In this document: positions 746 to 20,591 of the stretch, piece by piece | Layout: the number at the start of each line of letters is the position of its first letter | How positions within the stretch are numbered: position 1 is the stretch's first letter | Assembly (NCBI RefSeq): GCF_025602895.1 | Contig: NW_026516579.1 | Span: 1 to 20,591, forward strand | Length of the DNA stretch: 20,591 bases | DNA from: Polychytrium aggregatum | Taxonomy: Eukaryota; Chytridiomycota; Chytridiomycetes; Polychytriales | Reading direction: 5' to 3' | Translations under genes and position numbers: made by a program | Notes under the pieces: generated by a model | What the model was told of the DNA's origin: nothing | Seen by the model: the letters and a program-made list of their open reading frames with translations, nothing else | Databases searched by the model: none

Positions 746-1326
746 TGTCAAGACTGGACAACGGGGCAAGCAGGGAAGTGCGCAGAGTCCTAATACAAGA
801 CTCGAACGTAGGGAGAGGAGCGGGGACTGGACTGGGACACAGAGTGTCAAGTGTAAAGCCAAAGTTTTATTCTAGATCCAAGGCTTAGGATACTAAAAAT
901 ACAAAGTGGCAAGACGAAGGCAAAAGACAGAGGCTGGTCGGAGGGCTATTTATGCGAGCGCCAAGGATCGACGCTGCAGAGCGAGGGGGCAGGAGCGAAG
1001 CAGCGGCGGGGAGGGCGAAGCAGCGAGCGAAGCAGGTGGCGGCCGTGACTCGGGATCCGTGAGTCAGCGGGCGTCAGTGGCGGCGGCATGGCGGCGCCAA
1101 GGCGTCAGCGGCGTCGAGGCGGCGTCGTGGGCGTAACCCATGACCAACAGCAAGGAAGCGGGAACGGAACACAGGACAGCGCGCGTGCTGGCGGTAAGAC
1201 AACAAGGCAGCACAGCGCGGGAAACAAACAAACAGAAGGAAGGGAAAGCACTAAGACAGGCAAACAGAAAGGAAAGGGCAAGGGTAAAGGAAGGAAGATG
1301 GGCAAAGGCAGAGGGTGTTCATGACA
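746..1326 (-). repeat. 3' LTR of element 1
   Basis: This 581-bp direct repeat matches 6555-7135 and is bounded by TG...CA. Read on the minus strand it holds a TATA-like ATAAATA (953-947), the R-region self-priming sequence (915-907) and an AATAAA poly(A) signal (871-866). A TGAGTCA bZIP-type site sits at 1060-1066. Differences from the partner LTR are scattered substitutions and single-base indels, so this insertion is older than element 2. Confidence 0.95.
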
Positions 1327-1329
1327 CTA

Positions 1330-1339
1330 CCCCCCTCTC
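1330..1339 (-). promoter_or_regulatory. Polypurine tract of element 1
   Basis: On the minus strand GAGAGGGGGG lies three bases upstream of the 3' LTR and overlaps the pol stop codon. This is the expected position of the plus-strand DNA primer of an LTR element. Confidence 0.7.
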
Positions 1340-5269: not shown

Positions 5270-6483
5270 TCAAGTTTATTCACATCAACGACAGCCAAAG
5301 AAGCATCGATGGCAGCCAAGCGGGAGGATGCCTTATTGGGGCAGCGAAGGGCAATGTGCCCTTCCTGCTTGCAATAAAAGCAGCGGTTGGCAGCACGGAG
5401 GGCGGCCTTGTCCTCGGCGGTCAGCCTGCGAGCGGAGGCCTGGCTGAGGTCCATGGGCTGCGGAACGTTGAAGGCTTGAGCGGGGCGAGGAGGAGGAGCA
5501 GGAGCGAAGGGGCGAGGAGCCGGACGGAAAGGGAGAGGAGCCGGACGAGCAGGAGCAGGAGCAGGAGCGGAGCGGTGGTTGGGACGGCGGGAACGTTGGT
5601 CCTCCTGGCGGTTGTCGATGGCGATCGCCGCTTGCATGAGATCTTCGAGGTTGTCGAAGGAGCGGCGGGAGAGTTCGTCTTGAACCGAGGGCTTGAGTCC
5701 ACTCTCGAAGTGGAACATGAGAGGGTCTTGGGACCAAGTGAGGAGGTGGACGGCTTGGCGGCGGTACTCGGCGGCATAGGCGGCGGCGGAGGTGACTTGG
5801 TAAAGCCTGACCATCTCGCGAGCAGCGGCGATGGTGGGCTGGACCTGGCCAAAGGCAGCACGGAGCCACTCGGAGAAACCGGCAAAGTCACGGATGGCAG
5901 GGGGAGAGCACTCGGGGTCTCTCTCCAACTGATCGATGTACGGCTGCATGTAGTCTGCAGCAGTACCATCGAGATAGGATAAGGCGTAGAACACCTTATC
6001 CCTTTCAGTCTGGAAGAGGGGAGGGTTGGACACGAAGGCCAGTCTGCAATGCGAGAGGAAGGCATTGCAGCGGCTCGGGTCCTTACCAGAGAAGCGATCA
6101 GGGGGACCTATCTGCCTGGTGGCAGAGTTGCGACCAGCAGGGTTGTCCTCGGGGTCTTGGGCAGGATCATCGACGTCGTCAGGAACGCCGAAGTAGGGGC
6201 GACCTGCACGACGGATCGGGGCGGGAGCGGGAGCAGGAGGAGGTAGCTGGGCCTGGTAGCTGCGGAGGGCCTCCTGGACACTGGCGGCGACCACTTGGCG
6301 GACATCCTCTTCACGGCGAGCCAGGACCTGGTCCATACGATCGGTGATGCGGTTGAGCGCATCATCCTGATCGTGGAGGAACTTGGAAAAGTCCTGGAGA
6401 GAACGGGCGTTCTCGGCGGACTGGATAATGACCGCACGGATGGCCTGGAGCTCGGGCTCGGAAAGGCCAGAAGGGGAAGCCAT
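5245..6483 (-). CDS. Ty3/Gypsy Gag, element 1 (412 aa)
   Basis: This is the structural capsid and nucleocapsid precursor that forms the cytoplasmic particle in which the RNA is reverse-transcribed. I start it at the ATG at 6483 (MASPSGLSEP), about 70 bases after the 5' LTR; the same frame runs on upstream into the LTR but that part would be leader RNA. A predicted helical N-terminus (about residues 15-70) is followed by the retrotransposon Gag capsid region (about 110-270), a Pro/Ala/Arg-rich stretch and a canonical CX2CX4HX4C zinc knuckle at residues 368-381. The frame is undamaged, unlike pol. Pol follows in the -1 frame with a 25-nt overlap. No XXXYYYZ heptamer is obvious there; GGAAAAC is the nearest match. 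Confidence 0.9.
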   Translation of the reverse strand: MASPSGLSEPELQAIRAVIIQSAENARSLQDFSKFLHDQDDALNRITDRMDQVLARREEDVRQVVAASVQEALRSYQAQLPPPAPAPAPIRRAGRPYFGVPDDVDDPAQDPEDNPAGRNSATRQIGPPDRFSGKDPSRCNAFLSHCRLAFVSNPPLFQTERDKVFYALSYLDGTAADYMQPYIDQLERDPECSPPAIRDFAGFSEWLRAAFGQVQPTIAAAREMVRLYQVTSAAAYAAEYRRQAVHLLTWSQDPLMFHFESGLKPSVQDELSRRSFDNLEDLMQAAIAIDNRQEDQRSRRPNHRSAPAPAPARPAPLPFRPAPRPFAPAPPPRPAQAFNVPQPMDLSQASARRLTAEDKAALRAANRCFYCKQEGHIALRCPNKASSRLAAIDASLAVVDVNKLDDQENFSA

Positions 6484-6543
6484 TGGTAAAAGAGATAGAG
6501 AAGGGGACGGGGCAAAGGCAGGGCAAGTGGGGGGTTGTTGAAG

Positions 6544-6552
6544 GTCTTGCCA
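6544..6552 (-). promoter_or_regulatory. Primer-binding site of element 1 (self-priming type)
   Basis: Two bases after the 5' LTR the minus strand reads TGGCAAGAC. Its reverse complement GTCTTGCCA occurs in the LTR (minus strand, 6725-6717), 38 nt downstream of the start of the TATA box, i.e. near the predicted RNA 5' end. The Tf1/sushi group is known to prime minus-strand DNA with the folded 5' end of its own RNA. The 9-base match alone is modest, but element 2 has the same arrangement with the same spacing. Confidence 0.65.
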
Positions 6553-6554
6553 AG

Positions 6555-7135
6555 TGTCAAGACTGGACAACGGGGCAAGCAGGGAAGTGCGCAAGAGTCC
6601 TAATGCAAGACTCGAACGTAGGGAGAGGAGCGGGGACTGGACTGGGACACAGAGTGTCAAGTGTGAAGCCAAAGTTTTATTCTAGATCCAAGGCTTAGGA
6701 TACTAAAAATACAAAGTGGCAAGACGAAGGCAAAAGACAGAGGCTGGTCGGAGGGCTATTTATGCGAGCGCCAAGGATCGACGCTGCAGAGCGAGGGGGC
6801 AGGAGCGAAGCAGCGGCGGGGAGGGCGAAGCAGCGAGCGAAGCAGGTGGCGGCCGTGACTCGGGATCCGTGAGTCAGCGGGCGTCAGTGGCGGCGGCTTG
6901 GCGGCGCCAAGGCGTCAGGCGGCGTCGAGGCGGCGTCGTGGGCGTAACCCATGACCAACAGCAAGGGAGCGGGAACGGAACACAGGCAGCGCGCGTGCTT
7001 GCGGTAAGACAACAAGGCAGCACAGCGCGGGAAACAAACAAACAGAAGGAAGGGAAAGCACTAAGACAGGCAAACAGAAAGGAAAGGGCAAGGGTAAAGG
7101 AAGGGAGTGGGCAAAGGCAGAGGGTGTTCATGACA
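6555..7135 (-). repeat. 5' LTR of element 1 (promoter LTR)
   Basis: This 581-bp LTR has TG...CA ends and lies upstream of gag on the minus strand. It holds the TATA-like ATAAATA (6763-6757), the R-region primer sequence (6725-6717), an AATAAA-type signal and a TGAGTCA bZIP-type site (6870-6876) in U3. Transcription should start about 25-38 nt downstream of the TATA box. Confidence 0.95.
6757..6763 (-). promoter_or_regulatory. TATA box of element 1
   Basis: ATAAATA on the minus strand lies in the LTR followed by GCCC, very similar to TATAAATAGCC in the LTR of element 2. It lies 38 nt upstream of the sequence complementary to the PBS. Confidence 0.65.
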
Positions 7136-7140
7136 TGGGG
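7136..7140. repeat. Target site duplication of element 1 (right)
   Basis: TGGGG directly after the right LTR matches 741-745. Confidence 0.9.
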
Positions 7141-7566
7141 CATCCCACATGCCATTCCGACCTCACACTCCGATCATCGGGTTCGTATCTCCCCCAAACC
7201 GACTCAGATTGGGGTATCCGAGGGCGTATCTGCCGTGGGAAAGCTGCGTCTGGGGTGTCATGGGATGTGAATTGCATCATCCATGCATCGTGGATGCGTA
7301 AGGTTTGGCCATGGATGGGGAGGGTATTGGTCATCGTCGATGCTGATTCGTGCGATATCGGTGCGCAGACTGTGACGTTGATCACGATGGTCGATCACGA
7401 TGGCAGATAAGTCTGGTTGGGGCGATTCCCACGATCGTTGACGCTGGCGGCGATGCAGACTGGGAAACGATAAATACGGCAGCGAGGAAGACCAGCTTGA
7501 CTGACATCGCCAATGCGAGTTTCGGATCGCCAACGCGGGATCGGATCGTGAAACACAGGTTCATCG
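7141..7566. other. Gene-free stretch between element 1 and the LINE
   Basis: No protein family is recognisable on either strand. The stretch is rich in GATC/CGAT words and includes a short local duplication (CGATCACGATGG-like, about 7380-7402). The homology between the two LINE 5' ends stops at 7567. This stretch is therefore either the flank of the LINE insertion, or extra 5' UTR that the second copy at 20553 lacks. No telomere-type repeat abuts 7567, unlike at 20552. Confidence 0.5.
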
Positions 7567-7578
7567 CACATCGAGTTC

Positions 7579-7718
7579 TCTGCTCCTGCCGCACCTATCC
7601 TGCTCCTGCTGCACCTGTCCTGCTCTTGCTGCACCTGTCCTGCTCTTGCTGCACCTGTCCTGCTCTTGCTGCACCTGTCCTGCTCCTGCTGCACCTGTAT
7701 TGCTCTTGCTGCACCGTG
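7579..7718 (+). repeat. LINE 5' UTR monomers, 7 x 20 bp
   Basis: Seven head-to-tail 20-bp units of the type CCTGCTCTTGCTGCACCTGT occupy 7579-7718. The middle ones are nearly identical; the first and last are diverged. The partial LINE at the right end begins with the same first unit. Tandem 5' monomers act as promoters in mouse L1; whether these do is not known. They end about 105 bases before the ORF1 ATG. Confidence 0.9.
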
Positions 7719-7823
7719 TGGCCTGCACCACACTGCTTTCACCTCTGTGTTTGTTCCAGCTCTGCCCCTCCAGTTCCCCGCCCTCGCTCCCACACTCCCT
7801 GTCCCCTTCCCCACTGCTGAGCG

Positions 7824-10109
7824 ATGTCCAAGGACAGACCCCAGCAGTCCCTTCTCCCGGCCTCGACCATCGCTGTCGGCAGCTTGATCTTCAAGCGCAA
7901 GGAGCGACCCGTGGCCACCCCTTCCTCCCCCGCCAAGCGTCGCCTGTCCTTGCCCGACGCAATGACCATGCTCCCCAGGCCGGAGCATGACGAGCGTCTC
8001 CCCGAGTCCGAGTTCCCGTCCGTGTCCGTGCCCGAGTCCAGGCTCCCGGCCCCGCCCGAGTTCAGGTTCCCGGCCGAACCCGACTTTTCGTTCCCGCCCT
8101 TGGACCGCGCTGCCGCCCGTGCCGCCGTCGACATTGATGAACTGGAGGACATCAATGTCGAAGAAGACCTCAGCCCGGACCAAGAGCCTGACGCTGAGCC
8201 CTCGTCCTCCTGTGCCGACCAAGACCACCCTGCCGAGTCCCTGGCTCCCGTGTCCTCCTCCGCCGCTCCCCACCAAGACCACTGTGCCATGGACATTGTT
8301 GTCCAGCCCAGTGCCGACGTCGTCTCGGTTCCTTGGCGCGACGAGTTCTGGCGCAAGTGGCACGCCTCGTCCGACGTCGATGATCAGAAGGCTGCAACCC
8401 AGATCATCGACGTCACCAAGATGAACAACCAGCTGTGGATGGCCGTGACCGCCAAGCTGCAGTGCACTGTCCTGTGCCGCAAGTGCAAGCTCGCCTCGGC
8501 CGATCCCTGGATCGTCGTCAAGCACGGCAAGGACGAGCTCCAGCTCAAGTGTCCCCAGGCCCTCGAGGACGGACCCTGCCCCGGCCAGATGTCGGCCTTC
8601 CAGTTCTGGGCCCACATGAGCCGCACCACCAAGGAGTCCCGCAAGCTGTTTGTGGATGCGTTCTCGGACAAGTTCAAGGAGAACTTCCACACCAAGTGCG
8701 GCCTCAAGACCATGGACAAGCAGCGCGCCGTCCCCCGTGGTGCCTCTGAAGGCGCCCCTCGAGCAGCCCCTGCTTCCACTGCTGACCCCGTCGATCCAGC
8801 TCGTCGAGCTGTTGATGCTGTTGGCACTGCGTCCCCTGTCCCCAAGGCCAGGCCCGTCCTTCCGCCCCGACCCGTCGTCAAGGCCAAGACCCCTCCTCCG
8901 TCCCAGGCTCCCGTCCCTGCGATGAAACCCGAGGAGGCCCTCGCTATCCTCAAGCGAGAGGCTGACCGGGTGCAGTCCATCCTGTTCGAGGCACTCGTGG
9001 CCGACAACATGGATGCTGCCACCAAGGCCATGGTCCAGAAGATCGCCAAGTCCAATGTGGCAATCAGCCGTGCCACGGAGCAGCTCCGCAAGTCTGTTGC
9101 CAACAAGACTGCCACCCCCAAGACCCAGTCCCCCGGTTCCAAGACCCAGTCCTCCGGCTCCCTCCCTGGCTCTGCCCCTGTTTCCGCCCCGTCTCCCTCG
9201 TACAAGGCCGCTCTCTTGAAGAACGTTCGGGAGGCCGAGAGCCGTGTCGGCCGCATGTCCGAGGCCAGCCAGCTCGACGAATGGAAGAGGATGCTGACCA
9301 CCGGCCGAATGCCAGGCTCCTCCAAGCCGATCCAGCCCAACCAGCACCGCCAGCCAGTCCTTGTCCCCGGGACGGTCGCCAACTCTGAGCTCCGGAACGA
9401 CAAGTTCAGGGAGGCCGTCACCAACATGGACTGGCTGTACGTCGAGGGCATCCGCTGTGGCGACCTCGGCAGTGTCCGCCGCAACCTCAAGCGATGCGGC
9501 ATCGACACCAGGGAGTTGGCCGAGATCAACTTCCCTGAGGCCACGGTCATGGAGGTCCTTGTCCGCGACAAATCCAACAAGGCCGACCTTGGTGCCCGTC
9601 TGGAGTCGCTGTCGTCCACACATGGCAGGGTCAGGGTCGTACCGGCCTACGACGTCATCCATGGTCTCAAGCACCATGGACTGGCCCTGTCCCGATCCGA
9701 TGCCATCAAGAACTTTATGGCAAAGTCCCTCCGCCAGGCAGCCAAGGCCAAGACCGCCCCTGTCCGCCGCTGCATCCAGATGCGCATCCCCGAGGAGTAC
9801 CGCGACGAGTACGACTCGCTCCTCAAGAAGGCCCTATCCGGCAAGGAGGTCAAGCGGGCGGACATCACCGCCGTCCCCAAGGTCCCTGGTTCTGCCGCTG
9901 CCGCTGCCTCGTCGTCTGCCTCTGCCGCTGCCGCTACCGCTGCCCCTGCCGTTGTCGTTGCTGTCGCTGCTGCTGCTGCCCCCGCCGCTGGTGCCTCGTC
10001 AAAGCCCAGCAAGCCTCACCCCGCCTACAGAGTCCCGCTGTCCGTCATGGACACTGACTCTGAAGGAGAGGGCCCCCGGGCCAGCAGCAGCGCTGCACGA
10101 CTCCAATGA
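7824..10109 (+). CDS. LINE ORF1 protein (761 aa, putative nucleic-acid binding)
   Basis: This is the first ORF of the LINE, with the start at ATG 7824 (MSKDRPQQSL). The N-terminal ~200 residues are Pro/Ser/acid-rich with a basic patch near 25-42. A Cys cluster follows: C218-X2-C221-X21-C243-X8-C252, possibly a zinc-binding fold; there are no CCHC knuckles. A second Pro/Ala-rich stretch is followed by a likely helical/coiled-coil segment (about 365-420) and a folded region (about 525-600; WLYVEG...LKRCGI...VMEVLV) with an RRM-like alternation of strands and helices. The C-terminus is Ala-rich low complexity (about 690-735). ORF1 proteins of LINEs bind the element RNA as part of the RNP. The stop codon overlaps the ORF2 start. 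Assignment as ORF1p rests on position and layout, not on a recognised family. Confidence 0.8.
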   Translation: MSKDRPQQSLLPASTIAVGSLIFKRKERPVATPSSPAKRRLSLPDAMTMLPRPEHDERLPESEFPSVSVPESRLPAPPEFRFPAEPDFSFPPLDRAAARAAVDIDELEDINVEEDLSPDQEPDAEPSSSCADQDHPAESLAPVSSSAAPHQDHCAMDIVVQPSADVVSVPWRDEFWRKWHASSDVDDQKAATQIIDVTKMNNQLWMAVTAKLQCTVLCRKCKLASADPWIVVKHGKDELQLKCPQALEDGPCPGQMSAFQFWAHMSRTTKESRKLFVDAFSDKFKENFHTKCGLKTMDKQRAVPRGASEGAPRAAPASTADPVDPARRAVDAVGTASPVPKARPVLPPRPVVKAKTPPPSQAPVPAMKPEEALAILKREADRVQSILFEALVADNMDAATKAMVQKIAKSNVAISRATEQLRKSVANKTATPKTQSPGSKTQSSGSLPGSAPVSAPSPSYKAALLKNVREAESRVGRMSEASQLDEWKRMLTTGRMPGSSKPIQPNQHRQPVLVPGTVANSELRNDKFREAVTNMDWLYVEGIRCGDLGSVRRNLKRCGIDTRELAEINFPEATVMEVLVRDKSNKADLGARLESLSSTHGRVRVVPAYDVIHGLKHHGLALSRSDAIKNFMAKSLRQAAKAKTAPVRRCIQMRIPEEYRDEYDSLLKKALSGKEVKRADITAVPKVPGSAAAAASSSASAAAATAAPAVVVAVAAAAAPAAGASSKPSKPHPAYRVPLSVMDTDSEGEGPRASSSAARLQ
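10106..10109 (+). promoter_or_regulatory. ATGA stop-start overlap coupling ORF1 and ORF2
   Basis: The ORF1 stop TGA (10107-10109) overlaps the ORF2 ATG (10106-10108). In the telomeric silkworm LINE SART1 a UAAUG overlap drives termination-reinitiation, and AUGA is used in the same way by some fungal double-stranded RNA viruses. ORF2 is therefore probably translated at a low ratio from the same bicistronic RNA. Confidence 0.7.
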
Positions 10110-11193
10110 ATCCACACCCCTCGCAGGGAGGCGGCAGGGCCCAGACATCCCTGACCGTCGCTTCCTTCAATGTCTGTGGCATCAACGTCAACGACGTTGA
10201 ACTCAAGAACCTCATCGACACCAACGACATCGACTTTGTCGGTGTCCAAGAAACCCTCGCCGACCTCGAACCCCGCAGCCCTCTCTGTGGCTATGCCGTC
10301 AAGGTCCCTGGTCCCCGTTGCCGCGCCGGTAGAGGCATCGCCATCCTCTACAACCCGGCCAGGATCGACCCGCACGACTTCACCAACATTGAAGTCAGCG
10401 ACAAGGGCGACGCCATGTGGGTGACATACAAACACGTCATCCACATCGGCAACTTCTACCTGTCCCCGAGCCTCAAGCTGGACGACTACCGCGAGGCCCT
10501 CCAGTCGATCCACACCAAGGCCGCCCTCCCCGACGCCCAGGTCATTGTGGTGGGTGACTTCAATGCCCACCTCAGTGCCCTGAGCGGACTGCCCACGCCG
10601 CTCCGTGGCAGGGAGAAGATCCTCGAGGACACTGTCTCCCGCGCCGGTCTCCGCGTTGTGCCTCCAGCTGTGATCCCGACCCACACCCGGCAGCGGGGTC
10701 CCAGCTGGACAACGATCGACTACATCTTTGTGTCGCATCGCCAGGCCAACAACGACCCGCTGCTGCAGGTCGACACTGCCGGTGCCTTCCGTGGCCAGTC
10801 CGACCACTTCCCCATCTGGGCGACTCTGCGGGTACAGCCAAAGTACTACCCAAAGGTCGACCAATGGCAGTGGAAGATCGCCCAGCTCGAGGATCCTGCC
10901 GTCCGCGCCCAGTACCTCTTGGCGCTGCTGGACGAGCGCGAACGCGGTCTGCAGCGCATCCAGGCTGCACTCCGGCCAATCTCAAGGGGATCGGTCATTC
11001 CGATCTCGGAGAGTGCGGCCCAGGACTGCATCGACCGCGCCTGGTCCATCATGATCGCCCTGATCACCACCGCTGCCGACTCCACCATCGGCAAGGCTTC
11101 CATCAAGACCGTCTGGAAGGACCCGGCCCTGATCCCCGAGATGCGGCAGCTTCGCGAGAGGCGCCGCGATCTCATCTACCAGCTCAAGTTGCC

Positions 11194-11198
11194 CGGGC
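11194..11198. repeat. Target site duplication of element 2 (left)
   Basis: CGGGC lies directly before the 5' LTR and is repeated at 17603-17607. It is a 5-bp duplication, as for element 1. Confidence 0.95.
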
Positions 11199-11456
11199 TG
11201 TTAGGGATAGCTTCTGCTTGTTCTCCACTTTGACTGCACACTTGGCTGTTCTTTTGCCTTTCTGTTTGTTTGTGTGTAGCTTTGCAGTTCCCCTCCAATT
11301 TTCCGCCTTTTGCCTGCCATTTCCGCTCCTTCCGCACTTCCGTTTCCCCGCGCTGCTCCGCTTCCTTTGTCTTCTTCGCACGCGCCGGTTTGTTTGTGCA
11401 CGCGCCTTGCTGCGATTGGTTGCAATTCGGCTGCCGGTCATGTGTCCCACCACCGG

Positions 11457-11555
11457 TGACTCATGACCTGCCTGACCGCCCCGATCTCTTGTTCATCTCG
11501 CATGCATTTGCCCCAACCTTATACTTGACCAATCCGCTTCTTGGACGTTGAGTCA
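11457..11555. promoter_or_regulatory. Paired bZIP-type sites in the U3 of element 2
   Basis: TGACTCA (11457-11463) and TGAGTCA (11549-11555) are perfect AP-1/Gcn4 consensus sites, about 190-290 bases upstream of the TATA box. Element 1 has one TGAGTCA in each LTR. Fungal Tf1 is known to be bound by the stress bZIP factor Atf1; a similar stress control here is an inference. Confidence 0.4.
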
Positions 11556-11742
11556 CATTGCTTCGCCTTTGCACGTTTCTCCTGCCAGGTGCTTCGCTTT
11601 TGCTTGCGCCTCCCTCGCTTTGGTTCTCTGCCTGTCTCGGTGGTCCTTCTCGGCCCTCGTTCGTGCATCGCCCCCTTCGCCCTGCTCGATCGCCCACTTT
11701 TCCCTCCCTTGGCCGCCCTTCGCTGCCAAGTCCGGACTTGTC

Positions 11743-11750
11743 TATAAATA
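11743..11750 (+). promoter_or_regulatory. TATA box of element 2
   Basis: TATAAATA lies 39 nt upstream of the start of the PBS-complementary sequence, so RNA should begin at or just before that sequence. The same box occurs in the 3' LTR at 17356-17363. Confidence 0.8.
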
Positions 11751-11781
11751 GCCTGACCCCCGCGATGTGTAGTCGAACCTC

Positions 11782-11793
11782 AGCGTTCAAAAT
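11782..11793 (+). promoter_or_regulatory. R-region self-primer sequence of element 2
   Basis: AGCGTTCAAAAT is the exact reverse complement of the 12 bases that begin 2 nt after the LTR (11992-12003). Its position just downstream of the TATA box puts it near the RNA 5' end, as in Tf1-type self-priming. It is repeated in the 3' LTR at 17395-17406. An AATAAA (11801-11806) follows within ten bases and is the likely poly(A) signal when read from the 3' LTR. Confidence 0.75.
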
Positions 11794-11826
11794 AGGACTA
11801 AATAAAGTGCCTTCTACTTTATTCTC

Positions 11827-11984
11827 TGAGTGTTCCTCACGTCTCATTTCGAGACTAGTCTTATCTTGAACGGATCTTTGCTTCCCTCGCTCCCTCTCCG
11901 AGTCCACTTCGGACTTTACCCTTGCCTTCCCTGAGCTCACTTCGAGCTCACTTCTTCTTTTGCCGTTGAGTCCCCTTCGGACTC
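11827..11984 (+). repeat. Row of five small hairpins in U5
   Basis: Five inverted repeats with 5-base loops that all end in TTC: TGAG-TGTTC-CTCA (11827-11839), GTCTC-ATTTC-GAGAC (11841-11855), AGTCC-ACTTC-GGACT (11901-11915), TGAGCTC-ACTTC-GAGCTCA (11932-11950) and GAGTCC-CCTTC-GGACTC (11968-11984). In RNA they lie in the 5' leader between the transcription start and gag. The stems differ in sequence while the loops stay alike, which suggests that structure matters. The role is unknown; packaging or dimerisation is a guess. Confidence 0.6.
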
Positions 11985-11991
11985 TAACATC

Positions 11992-12003
11992 ATTTTGAAC
12001 GCT
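11992..12003 (+). promoter_or_regulatory. Primer-binding site of element 2 (self-priming)
   Basis: ATTTTGAACGCT starts 2 nt after the 5' LTR and is fully complementary to 11782-11793. There is no TGG start as expected for a tRNA 3' end. The spacing (2 nt) and target position are the same as in element 1. Confidence 0.75.
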
Positions 12004-12060
12004 CCCTCTTGGCTTCCCGGCCTTTCTTCTTCTTTCGCCTCTCTTTCCCTCGTCGATCCG

Positions 12061-13014
12061 ATGGCTGAGCCTGCTGCACCCCCTGCAGACCTCAACGCGT
12101 ATCTGGCGCGCATGGAGGAGCGTATGAACGCCCTCATGACCCAGAACGCTGCTCTCCATCGTCAGATCCAAGATCTGCAAGCTCCCGCCGCCGCTCCCCG
12201 CCAGGTCTACCAGGTCAACAAGCCCAAGGAGTTCCTAGGTTCCCGCGATGAAACGACGGCCTTCCTCGCCCAGTGCCACCTGGTTTTCCTCGCCGATCCT
12301 GCCTTCTTCGCGCCCGAGCGCCAGAAGGTCCTGTACGCCACCTCCTTCCTCCGCGGTGAAGCCTTCAAGTGGTACGAGGCCGCCTTCTACATGGCCAACC
12401 GCTTCCCGGCTTCCTTCGCGGATTTTGAAGTTGCCCTCAAGTCGACCTTCGGTGAGGACACGGCCTCCTCGCAAGATAAGGCCTTGAACGACCTCAAGCG
12501 CTTGGTCCAGCTCAAGTCCTGCCAAGCCTTCGCCACCCGCTTCGTCCAGCTCGCCGCCCGCGTCCAGACTGATGAACCCACCAAGATGCACTTCTTCAAG
12601 GAGGGTTTGAAGTCTGAGGTCAAGTTCCACCTCATCGGTCTCCGCCCCGCTCCCGCTTCCCTGCCTGAGTTGATCAAGGCAGCGGTCGAGTACGACGATG
12701 CCCTCCATCGTCTCAAGATCTCCTCCCGTTCCCAACCTCCTCCTCCTTCTTCTCGCTCTGCTCCCCATCACCACCATTCTCCCGCGCATGTTTCTTCTTC
12801 CTCCTCTTCTGCACCCACTCCCATGGACCTTGACTCTGTCTCGGTCCGCCCTGCTAAGCTCTCCGACGTCGAGAAAAAGCGACGTCGTGAGCAGGGTCTC
12901 TGCCTGTACTGCGGGGAAAAGTCTTGTCCCGGCAGTCGCGATGTTCAGCAGTGCCCGGTTCTGGTCAAACGGAACTCGGGAAATGCCCACAGCCGAGCAG
13001 CACCTCGCAAGTAA
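12061..13014 (+). CDS. Ty3/Gypsy Gag, element 2 (317 aa)
   Basis: This is the capsid/nucleocapsid precursor. I chose ATG 12061 (MAEPAAPPAD); it follows a 71-base leader after the LTR. A coiled-coil-like helix (about residues 10-40, ARMEERMNALMTQ) precedes a retrotransposon Gag capsid domain (about 55-225, with FLRGEAFKWYEA and the later HFFKEGLKSEV). A Ser/Pro/His-rich linker leads to a Cys motif at 281-298: C281-X2-C284-X4-C289-X8-C298. This lacks the His of a standard CCHC knuckle and has Cys in its place with longer spacing, so it may bind zinc differently. The last ~90 bases overlap the pol frame. Most ribosomes should stop at 13012-13014, a minority shifting into pol. Confidence 0.93.
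   Translation: MAEPAAPPADLNAYLARMEERMNALMTQNAALHRQIQDLQAPAAAPRQVYQVNKPKEFLGSRDETTAFLAQCHLVFLADPAFFAPERQKVLYATSFLRGEAFKWYEAAFYMANRFPASFADFEVALKSTFGEDTASSQDKALNDLKRLVQLKSCQAFATRFVQLAARVQTDEPTKMHFFKEGLKSEVKFHLIGLRPAPASLPELIKAAVEYDDALHRLKISSRSQPPPPSSRSAPHHHHSPAHVSSSSSSAPTPMDLDSVSVRPAKLSDVEKKRRREQGLCLYCGEKSCPGSRDVQQCPVLVKRNSGNAHSRAAPRK
12978..12984 (+). promoter_or_regulatory. -1 ribosomal frameshift heptamer GGGAAAT
   Basis: In the gag frame the codons read tcG GGA AAT, an exact X-XXY-YYZ slippery heptamer, 28 bases before the gag stop and inside the gag/pol overlap. A -1 slip here enters the pol frame at TGC (12984). I have not identified the downstream stimulatory structure. Confidence 0.65.
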
Positions 13015-16000
13015 GCGAGGTGGTCTGTTCGGCGATACGAACATCTTCCCCCTCTGACTCGTCATTATCGGACGATAAGCTTCTTCTTCCGGCCACCCTT
13101 GTCGTCATGAGTCTTTCTGGCCCGGTCTCCATCTCCCTTTCTGTCTTTATTGATGATGGATGCACCGCTCTTGCCCTCATTGATCCTGCCTTTGCGGATC
13201 TCCATAAACTCTCTCTTATCCCTCTTTCTACTCCCTACTCCGTTTCCCTTGCTGATGGTTCTTCGGCCGGTTTCATTCGTTTCCAAACCGTTCCTGTGAC
13301 GTTGACCATTGGTTCCCACACCGAGTCGATTTCTTTTCTTGTGACTCGACTCTCCACCACTCCCATCACTCTTGGTCTTCCCTGGATGCGCTTGCATAAT
13401 CCAGTTGTCAATTGGAAGTCCCTCTCCCTTTCGTTCTCCGATCCCTCTTGCCTTGCTGATGGACACATCCTCGCGGATGTCTCTGCTTCCTCCTTGGACA
13501 CTTCGTCCCCTTCCGGCTATTCGCCTCCCCCTTCGGGCACTTCGCCTTTGACTCCTCCCTCCGGTCCTTCCCTTACACCGGTTCCCTCCTTTGGCACTTC
13601 GCCTTCCCTTTCTTCCCGCCTTGACTCTGCTTCGCTTTCTGAAGAGCCAACGGCTTTATCTTCGCCCGACATTGAGCTCGTTAATGCGGCGAGTCTTCTC
13701 CGTCTTGCACGGGAAGACAAGCTCGACATTTTCGCTGCCCAAATGGATATCCGTCCTCCTTCGCCGGAGACGTATCCTACGGTGTCGATAAGGTCCGTGC
13801 TCACGACGAAGGTGTATGCCGAGTCTGGCACCCCTGTTGACTCTCGAGGTGTCCCGCTCAAATACAATGAGTTTGGCGACGTTTTCAGCCTCAAGTCTGA
13901 CCCTCCTTCTTCCTTGCCTCCTCACCGTCCGTATGACTTGTCTATTGAGTTTGTACGGACCGAGGATGGAAAGGAACCTCGTTTGCCAAAGCCGGGGAAA
14001 GTCTATCCTTTGTCCCCGGCCGAGGAATCTGCTCTTTCGGAGTATCTGACCAACGCCCTCGCACGTGGTTGGATCTCCAAATCCTCTTCTCCCGTTGGTG
14101 CTCCCTGCTTCTTCGTGAAGAAGCCCAATGGTGGTCTTCGCCTTTGCGTCGACTACCGGGGCCTCAATGCCATCACGAAGAAGAACCGCTACCCTCTTCC
14201 CCTCTTCCAGGATCTTCTGGATAAACTTTCTTCTGCCCGCGTCTTCTCACACCTTGACCTTCCTGATGCTTACCACTTGGTTCGTGTCAAGAAGGGCGAT
14301 GAGTGGAAGACTGCTTTTGTTTGCAAATCTGGCTCTTACGAGTACAATGTTATCCCCTTTGGTCTTTCGAATGCCCCCGCTGCTTTTCAGTTTTTTATGA
14401 ACGACATCTTCTCGGACCTCCTTGGTGTCTGTGTTGTCATTTATCTTGACGACATCCTGATCTTCTCAAAAGATCCCCTGGAGCATGAGGAGCATGTTAA
14501 GCTTGTTCTTTCTCGCCTTCGTGAACACTCTCTTAAGGTCAATCCGGCCAAGTGTTCTTTTGACCTTTCTGAAGTTGACTTTCTCGGCATGATCATTTCT
14601 GCCGATGGCATTAAAATGGACCCTGCCAAGGTCGAGGCCGTTTCCCTTTGGCCTGTTCCCTCTTCTGCTCGCGACATCCAAGTTTTTATTGGTTTCGCAA
14701 ACTTTTACCGCCGCTTCGTCAAGGACTTTTCCGCACTTGCTCGTCCTTTGACTTCACTCACCACCAAATCCTCCACCTTCTCTTGGTCTCCCGAGGCCCA
14801 AGAGGCTTTTGATTCTCTTAAACGTTCATTCACTTCCGCACCTATTCTTCGTTACTTTGATTTCTCCAAACCCGCTGTCATCGAGCCCGATGCTTCTGAC
14901 TTTGCTCTGGGTGCCGTCCTTTCCCAGTTTGACCCTGACGGCGCTCTTCACCCCGTTGCTTTTCACTCTCGGCAATTCCGTCCCGCCGAGGTGAATTATG
15001 ACACCCACGACAAAGAGCTCCTTGCTATTGTCGATTCCTTTACTGCCTGGCGTCATTACTTGATGGCTGCCGACCCCGATCATCCCACTCTTGTTTTCTC
15101 TGATCACCAGAACCTCACCCGGTTCACTTCCGCTTCCCAACTTTCTCGCCGCCAGTTCCGGTGGGCCCAATTCCTTTCTGATTTTGCTTTTCGCATTTAC
15201 CACCGCCCTGGTCGCCTCAACACCAAAGCCGATGCTCTCAGTCGCCGTTCTGACTTTGAGATAAAGCCTGGTGACTCCCTCCACTCCACCAACTTCCTTC
15301 AGCTGTTCGAGTCTATTTCTCTCGACAGCATCACCGTTATCGGCTCGAACCCCGATTTTCTTTCCGAGATTCGAGCTGCCACCCTTTCTTGTTCCCTTCT
15401 TTCTGACTTCAACGCCAAACGTCTTGATGGCGATTACTCCTTCCGTGACGGTCTCCTTTACTTTAAAGACCTGATCGTTGTCCCTTCCCCCGAGCTCCAG
15501 CTCAAAGTGTTTGAGCAACGTCACTGCTCCGCTGCCGCTGGTCACTTTGGTCTTGCCAAGACCGTTGAGCTCATCTCCCGGGACTTTCACTGGCCCCGGC
15601 TTCGTAAGTCTGTGCGTCGCTTCATTGCTAATTGTGAAGCGTGCCAGCGAGCCAAGCCGTCCCGTCACTCCCCTTATGGTTTACTTCACCCTCTCCCCGT
15701 TCCTTCCGAACGTTGGTGGGACCTGTCGATGGACTTCATCACGGATCTCCCACCTTCGAACGGCTTTGACTCCATCTTCGTGGTTAAGGACCGCCTGTCC
15801 AAACAAGCACACTTTGTGCCCACCACGAAGACGGTTACAGGCGAGCAAACCGCCGAACTCTTCCTCTCCCACATCTTCCGCTTGCATGGTTGTCCCCGGT
15901 CTATTGTTTCGGACCGAGGAACTCAGTTTACTTCGGCCTTCTGGAGGCGCTTCAATGAGCTTCTGAAGACGAAGATTTCCCTTTCTTCTGCCTTCCACCC

Positions 16001-16799
16001 CGAGACCGACGGTTCGACCGAGGTTCTCAACCAGGTCATCGAGCAGTATTTGCGTATCCATTGCAATTACCTGCAAGACGACTGGACCCTTCACCTTCCC
16101 CTTGCCGAGTTCACTTACAACAACTCGGAAAACACCTCCACTGGCATGACTCCCTTCTTTGCAGTCCATGGCCATCACCCCATTTTTGATCCCTCCATCA
16201 TCCGTGATCCTTCTGTTGTGCCCTCTGCCGAAGAACGTGTCGACCGACTTCAGACCGTTCTCGAGGATCTCAAGGCCAACCTCCGGGTTGCCCAAGAGTC
16301 CTACACTTTGCAGGCCAACAAATCCCGTCTCCCCACTCCCGACATCTCCGTTGGCGACCTCGTTTTTCTTGATCGTCGCCACATCCGCACCCTTCGTCCC
16401 TCCAACAAGCTTGATCAGAAAAAGCTTGGCCCCTTTAAAGTTCTTCGCCGCATCAACCCCGTTGCCTTTGAACTTAAACTCCCTTCCACACTCAAAGTCC
16501 ACCCCGTCTTTCATGTATCCCTCCTTGAACCCCGAACGAAGGACATTGTTCCCGAGTTCACCCAACCCGAACCTCCACCCATTCTTGTTGACTCCCAGGA
16601 AGAGTTTGAGGTCGAGACTGTTCTCGATTCTCGGCTCTTCCGTGGTCGCTTACAGTACTTGGTTCAGTGGAAGGGCTATTCCGAGACTGACCGGTCTTGG
16701 GAGCCCGCTGCCAATGTTTCCCACGCCACTGATCTTGTTGCTGACTTCCACCTTCGCTATCCCTCAAAGCCGAAGGCGACGCCCGGAGTTCGTCGCTAA
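12984..16799 (+). CDS. Ty3/Gypsy Pol, element 2 (PR-RT-RH-IN-chromodomain)
   Basis: Pol is made as a Gag-Pol fusion by -1 frameshifting and has no plausible ATG start. The post-shift part is 1271 aa, uninterrupted. Domains in order: aspartic protease (about 13120-13400), whose catalytic triad reads DDG in VFIDDGCTA instead of DTG/DSG; a Ser/Pro-rich spacer; reverse transcriptase (about 14000-14550) with YLDD at 14442-14453; RNase H (about 14870-15110) with DASD, DKEL and SDHQN; integrase with HHCC finger (HC...H...CEACQ, about 15520-15650) and core D (MDFITD), D (SDRGTQF), E (GSTEVLN) (about 15730-16040); a GPF/Y-like segment (KKLGPFKVLRR, near 16425); and a chromodomain (about 16605-16760; EFEVETVLDSR, WEPAANV). 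All RT, RH and IN catalytic residues I can read are present. The protease is the only unusual point. The stop TAA is at 16797-16799. Confidence 0.95.
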   Translation, partial: CPQPSSTSQVSEVVCSAIRTSSPSDSSLSDDKLLLPATLVVMSLSGPVSISLSVFIDDGCTALALIDPAFADLHKLSLIPLSTPYSVSLADGSSAGFIRFQTVPVTLTIGSHTESISFLVTRLSTTPITLGLPWMRLHNPVVNWKSLSLSFSDPSCLADGHILADVSASSLDTSSPSGYSPPPSGTSPLTPPSGPSLTPVPSFGTSPSLSSRLDSASLSEEPTALSSPDIELVNAASLLRLAREDKLDIFAAQMDIRPPSPETYPTVSIRSVLTTKVYAESGTPVDSRGVPLKYNEFGDVFSLKSDPPSSLPPHRPYDLSIEFVRTEDGKEPRLPKPGKVYPLSPAEESALSEYLTNALARGWISKSSSPVGAPCFFVKKPNGGLRLCVDYRGLNAITKKNRYPLPLFQDLLDKLSSARVFSHLDLPDAYHLVRVKKGDEWKTAFVCKSGSYEYNVIPFGLSNAPAAFQFFMNDIFSDLLGVCVVIYLDDILIFSKDPLEHEEHVKLVLSRLREHSLKVNPAKCSFDLSEVDFLGMIISADGIKMDPAKVEAVSLWPVPSSARDIQVFIGFANFYRRFVKDFSALARPLTSLTTKSSTFSWSPEAQEAFDSLKRSFTSAPILRYFDFSKPAVIEPDASDFALGAVLSQFDPDGALHPVAFHSRQFRPAEVNYDTHDKELLAIVDSFTAWRHYLMAADPDHPTLVFSDHQNLTRFTSASQLSRRQFRWAQFLSDFAFRIYHRPGRLNTKADALSRRSDFEIKPGDSLHSTNFLQLFESISLDSITVIGSNPDFLSEIRAATLSCSLLSDFNAKRLDGDYSFRDGLLYFKDLIVVPSPELQLKVFEQRHCSAAAGHFGLAKTVELISRDFHWPRLRKSVRRFIANCEACQRAKPSRHSPYGLLHPLPVPSERWWDLSMDFITDLPPSNGFDSIFVVKDRLSKQAHFVPTTKTVTGEQTAELFLSHIFRLHGCPRSIVSDRGTQFTSAFWRRFNELLKTKISLSSAFHPETDGSTEVLNQVIEQYLRIHCNYLQDDWTLHLPLAEFTYNNSENTSTGMTPFFAVHGHHPIFDPSIIRDPSVVPSAEERVDRLQTVLEDLKANLRVAQESYTLQANKSRLPTPDISVGDLVFLDRRHIRTLRPSNKLDQKKLGPFKVLRRINPVAFELKLPSTLKVHPVFHVSLLEPRTKDIVPEFTQPEPPPILVDSQEEFEVETVLDSRLFRGRLQYLVQWKGYSETDRSWEPAANVSHATDLVADFHLRYPSKPKATPGVRR

Positions 16800-16808
16800 G
16801 GAAGGGGA
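16798..16808 (+). promoter_or_regulatory. Polypurine tract of element 2
   Basis: AAGGAAGGGGA overlaps the pol stop codon and lies three bases upstream of the 3' LTR, the expected position for priming plus-strand DNA. Confidence 0.7.
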
Positions 16809-16811
16809 TGA

Positions 16812-17602
16812 TGTTAGGGATAGCTTCTGCTTGTTCTCCACTTTGACTGCACACTTGGCTGTTCTTTTGCCTTTCTGTTTGTTTGTGTGTAGCTTTGCAG
16901 TTCCCCTCCAATTTTCCGCCTTTTGCCTGCCATTTCCGCTCCTTCCGCACTTCCGTTTCCCCGCGCTGCTCCGCTTCCTTTGTCTTCTTCGCACGCGCCG
17001 GTTTGTTTGTGCACGCGCCTTGCTGCGATTGGTTGCAATTCGGCTGCCGGTCATGTGTCCCACCACCGGTGACTCATGACCTGCCTGACCGCCCCGATCT
17101 CTTGTTCATCTCGCATGCATTTGCCCCAACCTTATACTTGACCAATCCGCTTCTTGGACGTTGAGTCACATTGCTTCGCCTTTGCACGTTTCTCCTGCCA
17201 GGTGCTTCGCTTTTGCTTGCGCCTCCCTCGCTTTGGTTCTCTGCCTGTCTCGGTGGTCCTTCTCGGCCCTCGTTCGTGCATCGCCCCCTTCGCCCTGCTC
17301 GATCGCCCACTTTTCCCTCCCTTGGCCGCCCTTCGCTGCCAAGTCCGGACTTGTCTATAAATAGCCTGACCCCCGCGATGTGTAGTCGAACCTCAGCGTT
17401 CAAAATAGGACTAAATAAAGTGCCTTCTACTTTATTCTCTGAGTGTTCCTCACGTCTCATTTCGAGACTAGTCTTATCTTGAACGGATCTTTGCTTCCCT
17501 CGCTCCCTCTCCGAGTCCACTTCGGACTTTACCCTTGCCTTCCCTGAGCTCACTTCGAGCTCACTTCTTCTTTTGCCGTTGAGTCCCCTTCGGACTCTAA
17601 CA
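16812..17602 (+). repeat. 3' LTR of element 2
   Basis: The 791-bp LTR matches 11199-11989 with no difference seen by eye, at a constant offset of 5613. It includes TATAAATA (17356-17363), the self-primer sequence (17395-17406), AATAAA (17414-17419) and the hairpin row. Read as a terminator it would end the element RNA shortly after 17419. It could also drive outward transcription into the rest of LINE ORF2. Confidence 0.97.
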
Positions 17603-17607
17603 CGGGC
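17603..17607. repeat. Target site duplication of element 2 (right)
   Basis: CGGGC follows the 3' LTR and matches 11194-11198. After these five bases the LINE ORF2 frame resumes at 17608. Confidence 0.95.
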
Positions 17608-20189
17608 TCTCCCTCCGCGTCGCCGAGGACAAGCGCGCCGAACTCCGCGCTGTCCGCAAACAAGAAAAGAACCTCATCGTCCAGTCCCGCCGAGCAGCCG
17701 AGACCCTGGCCATGAACAAGCTGCACTCCCTCAACGCTTCCGAGGTCGCCAAGTCCCTGGCCGCCATGAAGAAGCGCAAGGAGCTCGACGACGCCTTCCA
17801 CTTTGACAACTCGGACGAGGCCCTCGAGCGACTTGTGGTCCACTACGGCAAGGTCTCCTCGCACTCCCAGGACACCCCCGGTGCCGCCTTTGACCGGACC
17901 GTCGGCCCAAGACCCCTGGACACTGTTCCGCGCCTGCTCCCCGAGGACCGCTCCATTCCCCGATTGTCGTCGGACGAGGTGGCCGATGCCATCGTCAAGT
18001 CCCCCAAGCGCAAGTCTTCCGGCCCGGACAAGATCAAGGCCGAGATGCTGCACCCTGTCGCTCCCGTGGTCGCTCCCTGGCTCCGGGCCATCCTGCTGGC
18101 CGCCCTCAAGGCCTCCGTCGTCCCGACCGAGTGGAACACTGTCCTGATCCACCCGGTCTACAAGAACAAGGGTTCGATCCTCGATCCGGCCATGTACCGG
18201 CCCATCGGGTTGACCCAGGTCCTCCGCAAGATCGCCGAGCGAGTCCTGCTGCCGTTCCTCACCCGCGAGATCGGCATCATGGACATTGCCCAGGGAGGCT
18301 TCCGCCCGGACCGAGGCACCCTCGACCAGGTGTACTCGCTCGACGCTCTTGTCCGCATGAACAAGATCCGCGACGACGAGTACAGCCTGGTCTTCCTCGA
18401 CATCAAGGCCGCCTACGACACTGTCTGGCGGGAGCGCCTCTGGGACAAGATCGCCACCCGAGGTGCTGGTCCGGTCGCCGTCGGGGTCCTCAGGGCCATG
18501 TTCGACCGCACTCTTGTCCGCGTCGCCAGCAAGGGCCGCACGTCGCAGCCTGTGTGGCTGCAGAAGGGTCTCATCCAAGGCTCGGTCCTGAGTCCCCTTC
18601 TGTTCAGTGCCCACATTGACGACCTGCCTGGACTGCTCCGAGCCGAGGACGGACTTGTGCTTGCCTCGAGTCGCCACCACCGTCTCCGGGTCAACTCGCT
18701 CTGGTTTGCCGATGACGGTGTCCTCATCTGTCCGGCTGGCCGCACCCAGGCCATGCTGGATATCTGCGAACGCCACAGCATCGACAACCGGTACCGCTTC
18801 TCGCCTCCCAAGTGCGAGGTGCTGTACTCGGCCTGCAACGTCGACCAGCTCCATCCCGCCAAGCTGTACGGCACCGAGCTGCCCAAGGTCCTCCAGTTCC
18901 GCTACCTCGGTGTCATGGTCGACATTGACGGATTCCGCCCGGACCTCCAGTTCGACAAGCTCCTCCGCAAGGTCCACATGGTCACCGACACCGTGGTTGG
19001 ACTCGGCATCACCCTCGGCAAGGTCTCGGCCAAGACCATCACCCAGGTCTACAAGACCTTTGTGCGGCCGACCCTCGAATACGGGATGGCCATGGACATC
19101 CCCGACCCAGCTCTGCGCGACCGCCTCGACGACGCCCAGATGACGGCCCTCCGCACCATGTTCCGCGTCGGCCCCGGCACTCCCGTCGGTGCCATGCACC
19201 TCAACTGCGGCCTTCCCAAGATGTCGGTCCGTGTCAAGATGCTGGCCCTGCAGAACTGGGCCCGCTGGGACGACCAAGTCTCTGACGGCGACAAGATGCT
19301 GTCGATGATCCTGCGCAACAAGATCATTGCGCCCTACCACCCCGACCAGTTCCTCGGCCAAGGAGTCCGAGCCGATCCGCACTGGGCCATGGTGGTCCGC
19401 CGACAAGAGGCCGACCACTCCCTCACGGCCACGGAGATCTACCGAGGCAAGACCCGACACCAGCCGCCGCCGCCCGGACCGCCCCGACCCCAGCCCGTCC
19501 CGATCAAGACCCTCATCTTCGAGGACCACATGAAGAACGGCTTCGACCGCTCCAAGCAGCTCACCGCCGCCTGCACCCCGTCGACCAAGATGTCGGGACT
19601 CTGGGAGGCTCGCGGGTACCAAGGATCCATGATCATGCTCATGTTCATGGTCCGATGGCGACTCGGTGCTCTCCCAGGCCACTTCAGATTTGGCTACCGC
19701 AAGTGCAAGAACCTGGCTCGACACGGATCCGGGATCGACTTGACCAGGACCCACGCACAGCAGTGTGTGGATCCGCATCAAGTCCTGGTCCGCAAGGTCG
19801 CAGCCCTCAAGACGGCCCACCCGACTTGGGTGGAAAGTGGTATAGCCGGAGTGGGACCAGTGGACAAGCTGCTGGACCTGCTCAGTTTCGATCGCACTCC
19901 CCCTCGCAGTCGCACCCCTCCCGCACTTGGATCACTTGCTGCTCATGTACCCGCTCCCCGCACTGCCTTCCGAGCATTCGCACTTGGTGCACACCCAGCA
20001 CCACCACCCACTCCCACACCCAGTGTAGTCCCACCCTTGCAGTCTCTCCCTGCACCCTCATCACAGCGTAGTATAGTGTCAGCACTTGTCATTCCTCCAC
20101 CCCGACCCCCCCTCGATCCTGCTGTTCCCTTGTGGGAACTGCTCGAAAATGTGTTCACCCGCTTGGTCTCAGACCTTGTGGGCAGCTGA
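17608..20189 (+). pseudogene. LINE ORF2, 3' part (reverse transcriptase), separated from its start
   Basis: This continues ORF2 in the exact frame left at 11198; the two parts make 1225 codons including the stop, a normal ORF2 length. The RT domain lies about 17980-18950: SSGPDKIKAEML, YRPIGLTQVLRKI, GGFRPDRG, FLDIKAAYDTVWR, LIQGSVLSPLLFSAHIDDL and the catalytic FADD at 18705-18716 (FADD replaces YADD, as in many LINEs). After thumb-like helices a C-terminal region has a sparse Cys/His motif (C...RTHAQQC, about 19705-19770) that looks like a reduced LINE zinc finger. A Pro-rich tail ends at TGA 20187-20189. There is no RNase H domain. The first internal ATG is at 17712, but a protein from it would lack the endonuclease. 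Confidence 0.92.
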
Positions 20190-20320
20190 GGCAGCACTAG
20201 GCTGCAACAGGAGTAAATAGGCTTGCCTGTGTACTCAACGTGCCGGGGTACCAACCTGTTGGACCTGATGGCTTGTCTTCTTGAATAAAGTTGACTATAG
20301 TAACAAAAAAAAAAAAAAAA
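20190..20320 (+). other. LINE 3' UTR and poly(A) tail
   Basis: The 3' UTR is 115 bases and includes a small stem-loop GCAGC-ACTAG-GCTGC (20191-20205) right after the stop, AATAAA at 20284-20289, and an A16 tail (20305-20320) 15 nt after the signal. The tail is followed at once by another LINE 3' fragment, with no host sequence or target duplication in between. Confidence 0.85.
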
Positions 20321-20521
20321 TCCTGCTGTTCCCTTGTGGGAACTGCTCGAAAATGTGTTCACCCGCTTGGTCTCAGACCTTGTGGGCAGCTGAGGCAGCA
20401 CTAGGCTGCAACAGGAGTAAATAGGCTTGCCTGTGTACTCAACGTGCCGGGGTACCAACCTGTTGGACCTGATGGCTTGTCTTCTTGAATAAAGTTGACT
20501 ATAGTAACAAAAAAAAAAAAA
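20321..20521 (+). mobile_element. 5'-truncated LINE copy (188 bp plus poly(A))
   Basis: Positions 20321-20508 repeat 20117-20304 with no difference seen by eye: the last codons of ORF2, the whole 3' UTR with AATAAA (20488-20493), then A13. The 5' truncation inside ORF2 is typical of incomplete reverse transcription. Its 5' end abuts the A16 tail of the upstream LINE and its own tail runs into telomere-type repeats. Confidence 0.93.
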
Positions 20522-20552
20522 CCTAACCTAACCTAACCTAACCTAACCCTGA
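20522..20552 (-). repeat. Telomere-type repeat (CCTAA)5 CCCTGA
   Basis: Five perfect CCTAA units (20522-20546; TTAGG on the minus strand) are followed by CCCTGA. TTAGG is the classic arthropod telomere repeat and fungi usually have TTAGGG; the final unit resembles TTAGGG with one change. It separates two LINE copies, joining the poly(A) of one to the 5' end of the next. Confidence 0.8.
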
Positions 20553-20591
20553 CACATCGAGTTCTCTGCTCCTGCCGCACCTATCTGCTCC
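20553..20591 (+). mobile_element. 5' end of a second LINE copy (cut by window edge)
   Basis: Positions 20553-20591 match 7567-7606 except for one missing C, covering the start of the 5' UTR and the first 20-bp monomer. It has the same orientation as the upstream LINE, so the arrangement is head to tail. The match begins directly after the telomere-type repeat, which makes 20553 a candidate natural 5' end. Confidence 0.85.

Follow-up and report, generated by a model that had tools for sequence, protein, structure and literature searches.

Head-to-tail LINE arrays joined through telomere-type repeats in the chytrid Polychytrium aggregatum: a candidate case of retrotransposon attachment to chromosome ends

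The stretch of DNA analysed here, called the window below, is the 20,591-nucleotide contig NW_026516579.1 of the chytrid fungus Polychytrium aggregatum (RefSeq assembly GCF_025602895.1; 64.68 Mb in 418 contigs, numbered here with a C, the window being C309). An EF-2 exon of contig C357 agrees with Polychytrium aggregatum at 100%, as against about 81% or less for the other chytrids among the matches listed. It carries a long interspersed nuclear element (LINE), LINE-A, and at its right end a junction in which copies of this element follow one another head to tail through poly(A) tracts and telomere-type repeats. Copies of LINE-A across the assembly cluster at contig ends in one polarity, and the arrays are probably built by attachment of the element to eroded chromosome ends, in alternation with capping by telomerase.

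LINE-A and the Right End of the Window

The following features were recognized, with open reading frame, long terminal repeat, apurinic/apyrimidinic endonuclease and untranslated region abbreviated as ORF, LTR, APE and UTR.

1..745, + strand: LINE-A 5′ region, or subtelomeric sequence repeatedly fused to LINE-A; interrupted by Ty3A and resumed at 7136
746..7135, − strand: Ty3A, a Ty3/gypsy LTR element with chromodomain, within the LINE 5′ region (LTR repeats; Pfam RVT_1, RNase H, rve, Chromo)
7136..7823, + strand: LINE-A 5′ region, with 20-bp tandem repeats at 7580-7715
7824..10109, + strand: LINE-A ORF1, 761 aa, no Pfam match
10106..11198, + strand: LINE-A ORF2, first part, N-terminal APE-type endonuclease (PF03372, PF14529)
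11199..17602, + strand: Ty3B, a Ty3/gypsy LTR element with chromodomain, inserted in ORF2
17603..20189, + strand: LINE-A ORF2, second part, reverse transcriptase (PF00078)
20190..20304, + strand: LINE-A 3′ UTR, 115 nt, read directly; query for the copy search
20305..20320, + strand: poly(A), A16, leading into the next LINE fragment inward
20321..20508, + strand: 5′-truncated LINE-A copy of 188 nt, 3′ end only, matching 20117-20304
20509..20521, + strand: poly(A), A13, leading into the telomere tract
20522..20552, + strand: buried telomere tract, C-rich strand, (CCTAA)5 at 20522-20546 and the variant CCCTGA at 20547-20552
20553..20591, + strand: start of an inner LINE-A copy, truncated to position 7567 and running to the end of the contig

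The order LINE, A16, truncated LINE, A13, (CCTAA)5, CCCTGA, LINE, all in a single orientation, had been proposed in the initial annotation and is borne out by direct reading. The same parts recur in the same order in C20 and C170, again with A16 and A13, and in C256, with A17 and small differences. The last 39 nt (20553-20591) match the window from 7567 onward save for one missing C, and CCCTGA is a variant telomere repeat that occurs also within the telomere tracts of contig ends. That CCCTGA is followed by LINE sequence stands, but the claim that a LINE 5′ end begins there was dropped: the element probably does not truly start at 7567, because in other copies window sequence 1-745 and 7136-7566 lies upstream of it. 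Position 7567 is instead a recurrent point at which truncated copies received telomere-repeat caps; its motif occurs 58 times in the assembly, 15 of them directly beside a telomere-joined tail by hand count.

LINE-A is a non-LTR element with ORF1, an APE-type endonuclease, a reverse transcriptase and a poly(A) 3′ end, and without an LTR; the poly(A) was read at the tabulated tails, the tail search pattern itself demanding A8. ORF2 overlaps ORF1 by ATGA at 10106. No homologue of ORF1 was found at E ≤ 0.001 among 8000 scored candidates in the protein database. The ORF2 endonuclease contains all of SFN, QET, GDFN, IDYI and SDH, which we take to be the catalytic motifs, and its best scores against solved structures are weak (E 0.17 and 0.83). 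The reverse transcriptase part, in which the Pfam scan matched RVT_1 only, is best matched among solved structures by the human L1 ORF2p type (E ~1e-16; the top match is labelled just RNA-directed DNA polymerase), then by R2 (5e-12). Among 8000 scored candidates it has 52 protein-database matches of 23-38% identity, in 33 of which, by hand count, a precomputed APE-type domain is present.

Both Ty3 elements interrupt this anatomy. Ty3A is flanked by a 5-bp target duplication, TGGGG (741-745 / 7136-7140), read at the junctions, while Ty3B has identical 791-bp LTRs and the duplication CGGGC (11194-11198 / 17603-17607). Before Ty3A entered, 1-745 and 7136-7566 formed a single block, parts of which run straight into the LINE 5′ part in C1 and C124 with no Ty3A between; in C101, C235 and C375, too, the LINE is preceded by the final bases of this block. 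The 1-745 portion itself receives LINE tails at ~385, ~390 and ~665, and in C335 it is telomere-capped near position 52.

Joins at the Poly(A) Tails

The tail GACTATAGTAAC followed by A8 occurs 195 times in the assembly (105 forward, 90 reverse), and the backwards control pattern does not occur in it at all. After duplicates had been removed by hand from 47 rows, there were 38 distinct tails followed within 14 bases by CCTAACCTAA, always at one phase of CCTAA; the backwards control of this combined pattern again gave 0. A table of joins was drawn up for the first 100 of the 195 tails, 91 of which were read directly; the remaining nine, with C59, C204 and C212 among them also read, were called telomere-joined by the search pattern.

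Telomere repeats (CCTAA) follow 25 of the 100 tails and degenerate telomere sequence two more, namely a CCTA run in C183 and, at C112:710334, CCTAACC running into a Ty3-like element. Another 47 tails are joined to a LINE (32 to LINE-A, nine to diverged LINEs and six to the LINE 5′ region), and all 47 are in sense, head to tail. Nine are joined to Ty3 or Ty3-like elements, four in sense and five antisense to the element's coding strand, as oriented by hand. The diverged-LINE and Ty3-like classes rest partly on translated comparison, and C79:852845 was placed among diverged LINEs through its identity to C79:878652, without a match of its own. By their 30-mers, 70 distinct joins are present among the 91 tails read.

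These counts bear on what the initial annotation had expected, that most tails would join CCTAA-type repeats or another LINE, and this holds for 74 of 100. The larger proposal, of a retrotransposon targeting chromosome ends, is supported. Its telomeric part needs to be narrowed: joins to telomere repeats are a minority, 73 of the 100 tabulated tails and 157 of 195 overall going elsewhere, and the target would be chromosome ends rather than the telomere repeats themselves, because LTR-type or unassigned DNA follows 26 of the 100 tails.

The joins share a base rule. Distinct joins that could be mapped by DNA to the window LINE, the LINE 5′ region or Ty3 were counted, with diverged-LINE, telomere and unassigned joins left out. 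Of 27 distinct LINE-A or 5′-region joins without extra bases, 26 have A as the reference base immediately before the join; random breaks, moved beyond A runs by the same procedure, gave a mean of 9.2 and reached 26 in none of 20,000 simulations. The same base precedes all five Ty3 joins without extra bases, which gives 31 of 35 overall when three joins with extra bases are counted as failures, and the priming 3′ end therefore mostly finished in T, as in TTAGGT(T). The base after that A (n = 26) is C in 16 cases, T in seven and G in three, C being favoured over G (uncorrected P ~0.03 for C, ~0.01 for G), which hints weakly at a primer ending in ...GGT-3′.

Position on Chromosomes and Outer Junctions

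Position was counted on contigs longer than 200 kb and of known length, smaller contigs and those of unknown length being left out. The 38 tails so placed include nine beyond the first 100, taken from lists biased toward tails with a telomere join or a long poly(A). LINE-A lies within 75 kb of a contig end and points outward, with its poly(A) inward, in 36 of these 38 tails, and 20 of 22 LINE-A 5′ motifs are likewise near an end and outward; sequence within 75 kb of an end makes up 19% of that counted. The clustering at contig ends and the polarity that had been read from the window, tip to the left and centromere to the right, are thereby supported.

The outer (5′) junctions were tabulated for 22 truncated copies, a minority of all copies. 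Another LINE-A poly(A) lies there in nine (three being the same C170 join), a LINE-B tail in one (C40; LINE-B is described below), telomere repeats in two (C39, C40) and LTR-element ends or other sequence in ten. Additional to these 22 are 41-nt LINE pieces in C2 and C170, each with a tail directly before it. An interrupted LINE resumes beyond none of the 22 junctions, ten of which are uninformative. Nested insertion of LINE into LINE was considered and was not seen at the 22 outer junctions, of which the ten with LTR ends or other sequence say little.

An internal LINE-A piece of 243 nt lies within C112:708823-711937 amid Ty3-type stretches, its poly(A) followed by CCTAACC. No target duplication was seen at this piece, which is possibly a former chromosome end or a repaired break.

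Telomere Tracts and Telomerase

The telomere of this chytrid is of the TTAGG type. Tracts of CCTAA, with CCTGA, CCCTGA and CCCTAA variants among them, stand at the left ends of C39 (~341 bp) and C112 (~275 bp) and the right end of C40 (~358 bp); none was found at the ends of C2, C13, C35, C124 and C135, nor at the right end of C112. The C39 tract is directly followed by a 36-nt LINE 3′ end, A15, (CCTAA)5 and a further truncated LINE, the C40 tract caps a 240-nt LINE piece, and the left C112 tract caps sequence without a LINE match. Three matches to the telomerase RNA-binding domain exceed the cut-off, all together at C408:433538-434141.

Buried tracts were counted as ten distinct cap types after LINE-A tails, single-repeat tracts standing outside the count. 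The first run of perfect repeats is three in two types, four in two, five in four, and ten and eleven in one each; one five-repeat type goes on as CCCTGACCCTGA and another run, and one three-repeat type resumes past an extra C. Buried tracts are thus mostly of 3-5 repeats as against 275-358 bp at contig ends, consistent with LINEs having attached to short telomeres or with the tracts having shrunk afterwards. Short interior CCTAA runs were also met in simple-sequence regions at C20:91026 and C24:99375, with no LINE noticed there.

A (CCTAA)5CCCTGA cap at LINE position 7567 is common to C2, C20, C40, C59, C170, C256, C286 and the window, and the pieces that precede it differ (~41, 188 and 240 nt, and longer LINE pieces). 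Gene conversion or a tag carried by RNA is possible. In HeT-A-like tagging the RNA carries the 3′ end of the upstream element and a telomere tract, and such tags could be the source of an identical cap behind differing LINE pieces.

Tandem Spacing and a Second Family

Some arrays are regular. Nine LINE-A tails lie in C207:6103-26205, eight of them alternating at ~2.81 and ~2.96 kb with fixed telomere tracts, and the same spacing is seen in C38:11578-17343, with one of these junctions also at the left end of C39; the alternation looks like rolling-circle or D-loop amplification. Telomere-joined tails at 5.18-kb steps occur in C182:30840-36018, where the tract is (CCTAA)4 and then AT-richer sequence of no assigned class, and in C374:34554-50119, where the tails are known from search pattern matches only. 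Since identical junctions are repeated and tandem spacings present, recombination also spreads the arrays.

A second LINE family, LINE-B, with the tail CAACTATCAAAAC-poly(A), is mixed into the same arrays in 19 places. On the large contigs 13 of 16 LINE-B tails lie no more than 75 kb from an end and outward, the exceptions being C46:453904 and two in C377. Its joins mapped to the window have A before the join in five of six, one of the five with mismatching leading bases.

Probable Attachment to Chromosome Ends and the Alternatives

The reading that probably accounts for these arrays is that eroded chromosome ends receive LINE-A by way of its poly(A), with telomerase capping the added element between rounds. 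LINE-A RNA would be reverse transcribed from the 3′-OH of a chromosome end, its poly(A) pairing with a T at the end of the G-rich strand, either telomeric (...TTAGGT(T)-3′) or at an eroded subtelomeric end in T. The new copy would lie with its poly(A) centromere-ward and its often truncated 5′ end outward, the latter then being capped by the TTAGG-type telomerase; the cap may erode to a few repeats or vanish, and another LINE would attach. We infer that the primer is a free end rather than an endonuclease nick, that LINE-A prefers short or uncapped ends, and that the cycle of attachment and capping is still running.

Several observations weigh against this account. Joins of 17 of the 100 tails are unassigned, and the table covers 100 of 195; the 75-kb limit was chosen after the data were seen; the C112:710334 tail, on its 243-nt fragment, and the 5′ motif at C375:456023 are internal, and at the left end of C335 both tail and 5′ motif face inward. 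Four of the 35 mapped joins have no A before them. Extra or mismatched bases occur at three of these (C1:341, C149:13534 and C79:888119, excluded from the 27 and five joins without extra bases), and the fourth, C28:132346, is one base off the C197/C245 join and may be the same event. As recombination spreads the arrays, copies are not independent events. Finally, nicking is possible because the endonuclease looks intact, and the terminal-T rule cannot separate a nick from a free end, because an endonuclease leaving a 3′ T gives the same rule.

The intact-looking endonuclease also speaks for an unlikely alternative modelled on TRAS/SART, in which it nicks TTAGG between T and A, LINE-A enters telomere arrays, and the LINE-LINE joins arise later by breakage and recombination. 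The telomere is TTAGG as in silkworm, and the phase of the joins, poly(A) then CCTAA, is the one expected from a TT|AGG cut (PMC4700185, accessible part). Most joins are nevertheless non-telomeric, yet those mapped to the base mostly follow the terminal-T rule, and random insertion should leave inner tracts longer than the 3-5 repeats mostly found, contig-end tracts being 275-358 bp. A quite improbable route is template jumping, whereby the reverse transcriptase would run off one LINE RNA onto the poly(A) of a second and so lay down a concatemer per insertion, with telomere joins a separate matter. The sense orientation of all LINE joins and the chaining of very short pieces (~41, 68, 112 and 188 nt) speak for it, and a terminal T could help a jump too; Ty3-type DNA, however, follows poly(A) as well, in either orientation, with the A rule in five of six mapped cases, and in many places telomere repeats lie between LINE copies, beyond what a jump can make. 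Slightly lower still is the probability that LINE-A is an ordinary LINE that became trapped at the ends of chromosomes and owes its spread mostly to subtelomeric recombination and tandem amplification rather than to targeted attachment. Here the recurrence of junctions on several contigs, the tandem spacings in C207, C38, C374 and C182 and the identical cap at 7567 beside different LINE pieces are to be set against the number of distinct joins, the large number of truncation points and the base rule at the joins, which recombination would not produce.

Whether by priming on free ends or by endonuclease nicking, attachment to ends in alternation with telomerase is the best explanation, and a probable one. 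A bolder version, put forward tentatively and with rather less than even confidence, is that a chytrid with telomerase uses an APE-type LINE as a parallel end repair, ends at about five TTAGG repeats or fewer, or past them, priming LINE-A or LINE-B via one terminal T and telomerase re-sealing the added LINE. It has long been asked whether LINEs prime on free or critically short ends in telomerase-positive cells, and the terminal-T rule together with the short buried tracts makes that question testable, biochemically and by long reads.

Comparison with Known Systems

The attachment of LINEs to chromosome ends is already known elsewhere. Zepp of the green alga Chlorella is arranged as 5′-truncated tandem copies with the poly(A) inward. 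It resembles LINE-A, without kinship being claimed, in that copies of a LINE have gathered in a telomeric region (cited in PMC10088271; this and the sources below are used as far as their accessible parts go). The HeT-A/TART/TAHRE elements of Drosophila likewise form chromosome-end arrays of mixed families with the poly(A) toward the centromere (PMC10088271), an arrangement that LINE-A shares in its terminal, outward tails and uniformly sense LINE joins, again with no claim of kinship. Drosophila is without telomerase, whereas the host of LINE-A has a telomerase domain and CCTAA contig ends, and LINE-A does not replace telomerase as HeT-A-like elements do. TRAS/SART of Bombyx also carry ORF1, and their endonuclease cuts TTAGG between T and A, from which the same join phase would be expected; only full-length copies are reported at telomeres in what is accessible of PMC4700185; LINE-A has many truncated copies, and 38 of its 195 tails join CCTAA at one phase, most joins lying elsewhere.

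The accessible text of PMC10088271 names SART/TRAS, GilM/GilT, Zepp1, MoTeR1, Tx1 of anole and rotifer Athena as telomere-associated LINEs, and among the elements named in those parts of PMC10088271 and PMC12857005 none is from a chytrid. No report of LINE-A, or of a telomeric LINE in a chytrid or in Polychytrium, appeared among the literature matches listed, whose coverage largely excludes subscription journals.

Fungi offer the closest likenesses. MoTeR1/2 of Magnaporthe oryzae are non-LTR elements that lie in telomere repeats, in head-to-tail arrays with short telomere tracts between them and truncated copies; the arrays undergo regular tandem amplification of the kind seen in the LINE-A spacings and take insertions of the LTR element MAGGY, just as chromodomain Ty3/gypsy elements sit inside LINE-A (PMC7367193). 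MoTeR1 has a putative restriction-like endonuclease, a SLACS/CRE1-like reverse transcriptase and a telomere-like terminal sequence (PMC7367193), while in LINE-A the endonuclease is N-terminal and of APE type, ORF1 is separate, the 3′ end is a poly(A) tail and joins to telomere are outnumbered by those to other sequence. Fusarium oxysporum (FoTeR) and Cryptococcus (Cnl1) have chromosome-end elements too, the 3′ ends of FoTeR being followed typically by 3-7 telomere repeats where LINE-A has mostly 3-5; for neither is poly(A)-to-LINE attachment described in the accessible text (PMC12857005), unlike LINE-A. FoTeR, MoTeR1 and Cnl1 are grouped with SLACS and CRE and have restriction-like (REL) endonucleases (PMC12857005). 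CRE/SLACS-type telomeric LINEs of fungi are expected to lack an N-terminal APE domain, whereas ORF2 of LINE-A starts with PF03372/PF14529, and to judge from its sequence LINE-A would be an APE-type fungal case distinct from them. With 195 LINE-A tails recorded in one assembly, this case comes from an early-diverging fungal phylum, and the same chromosome ends appear to be served by LINE attachment and telomerase in turn. On the bolder version given above, telomeric LINEs would have an origin in fungi separate from the CRE-type group of MoTeR, FoTeR and Cnl1.
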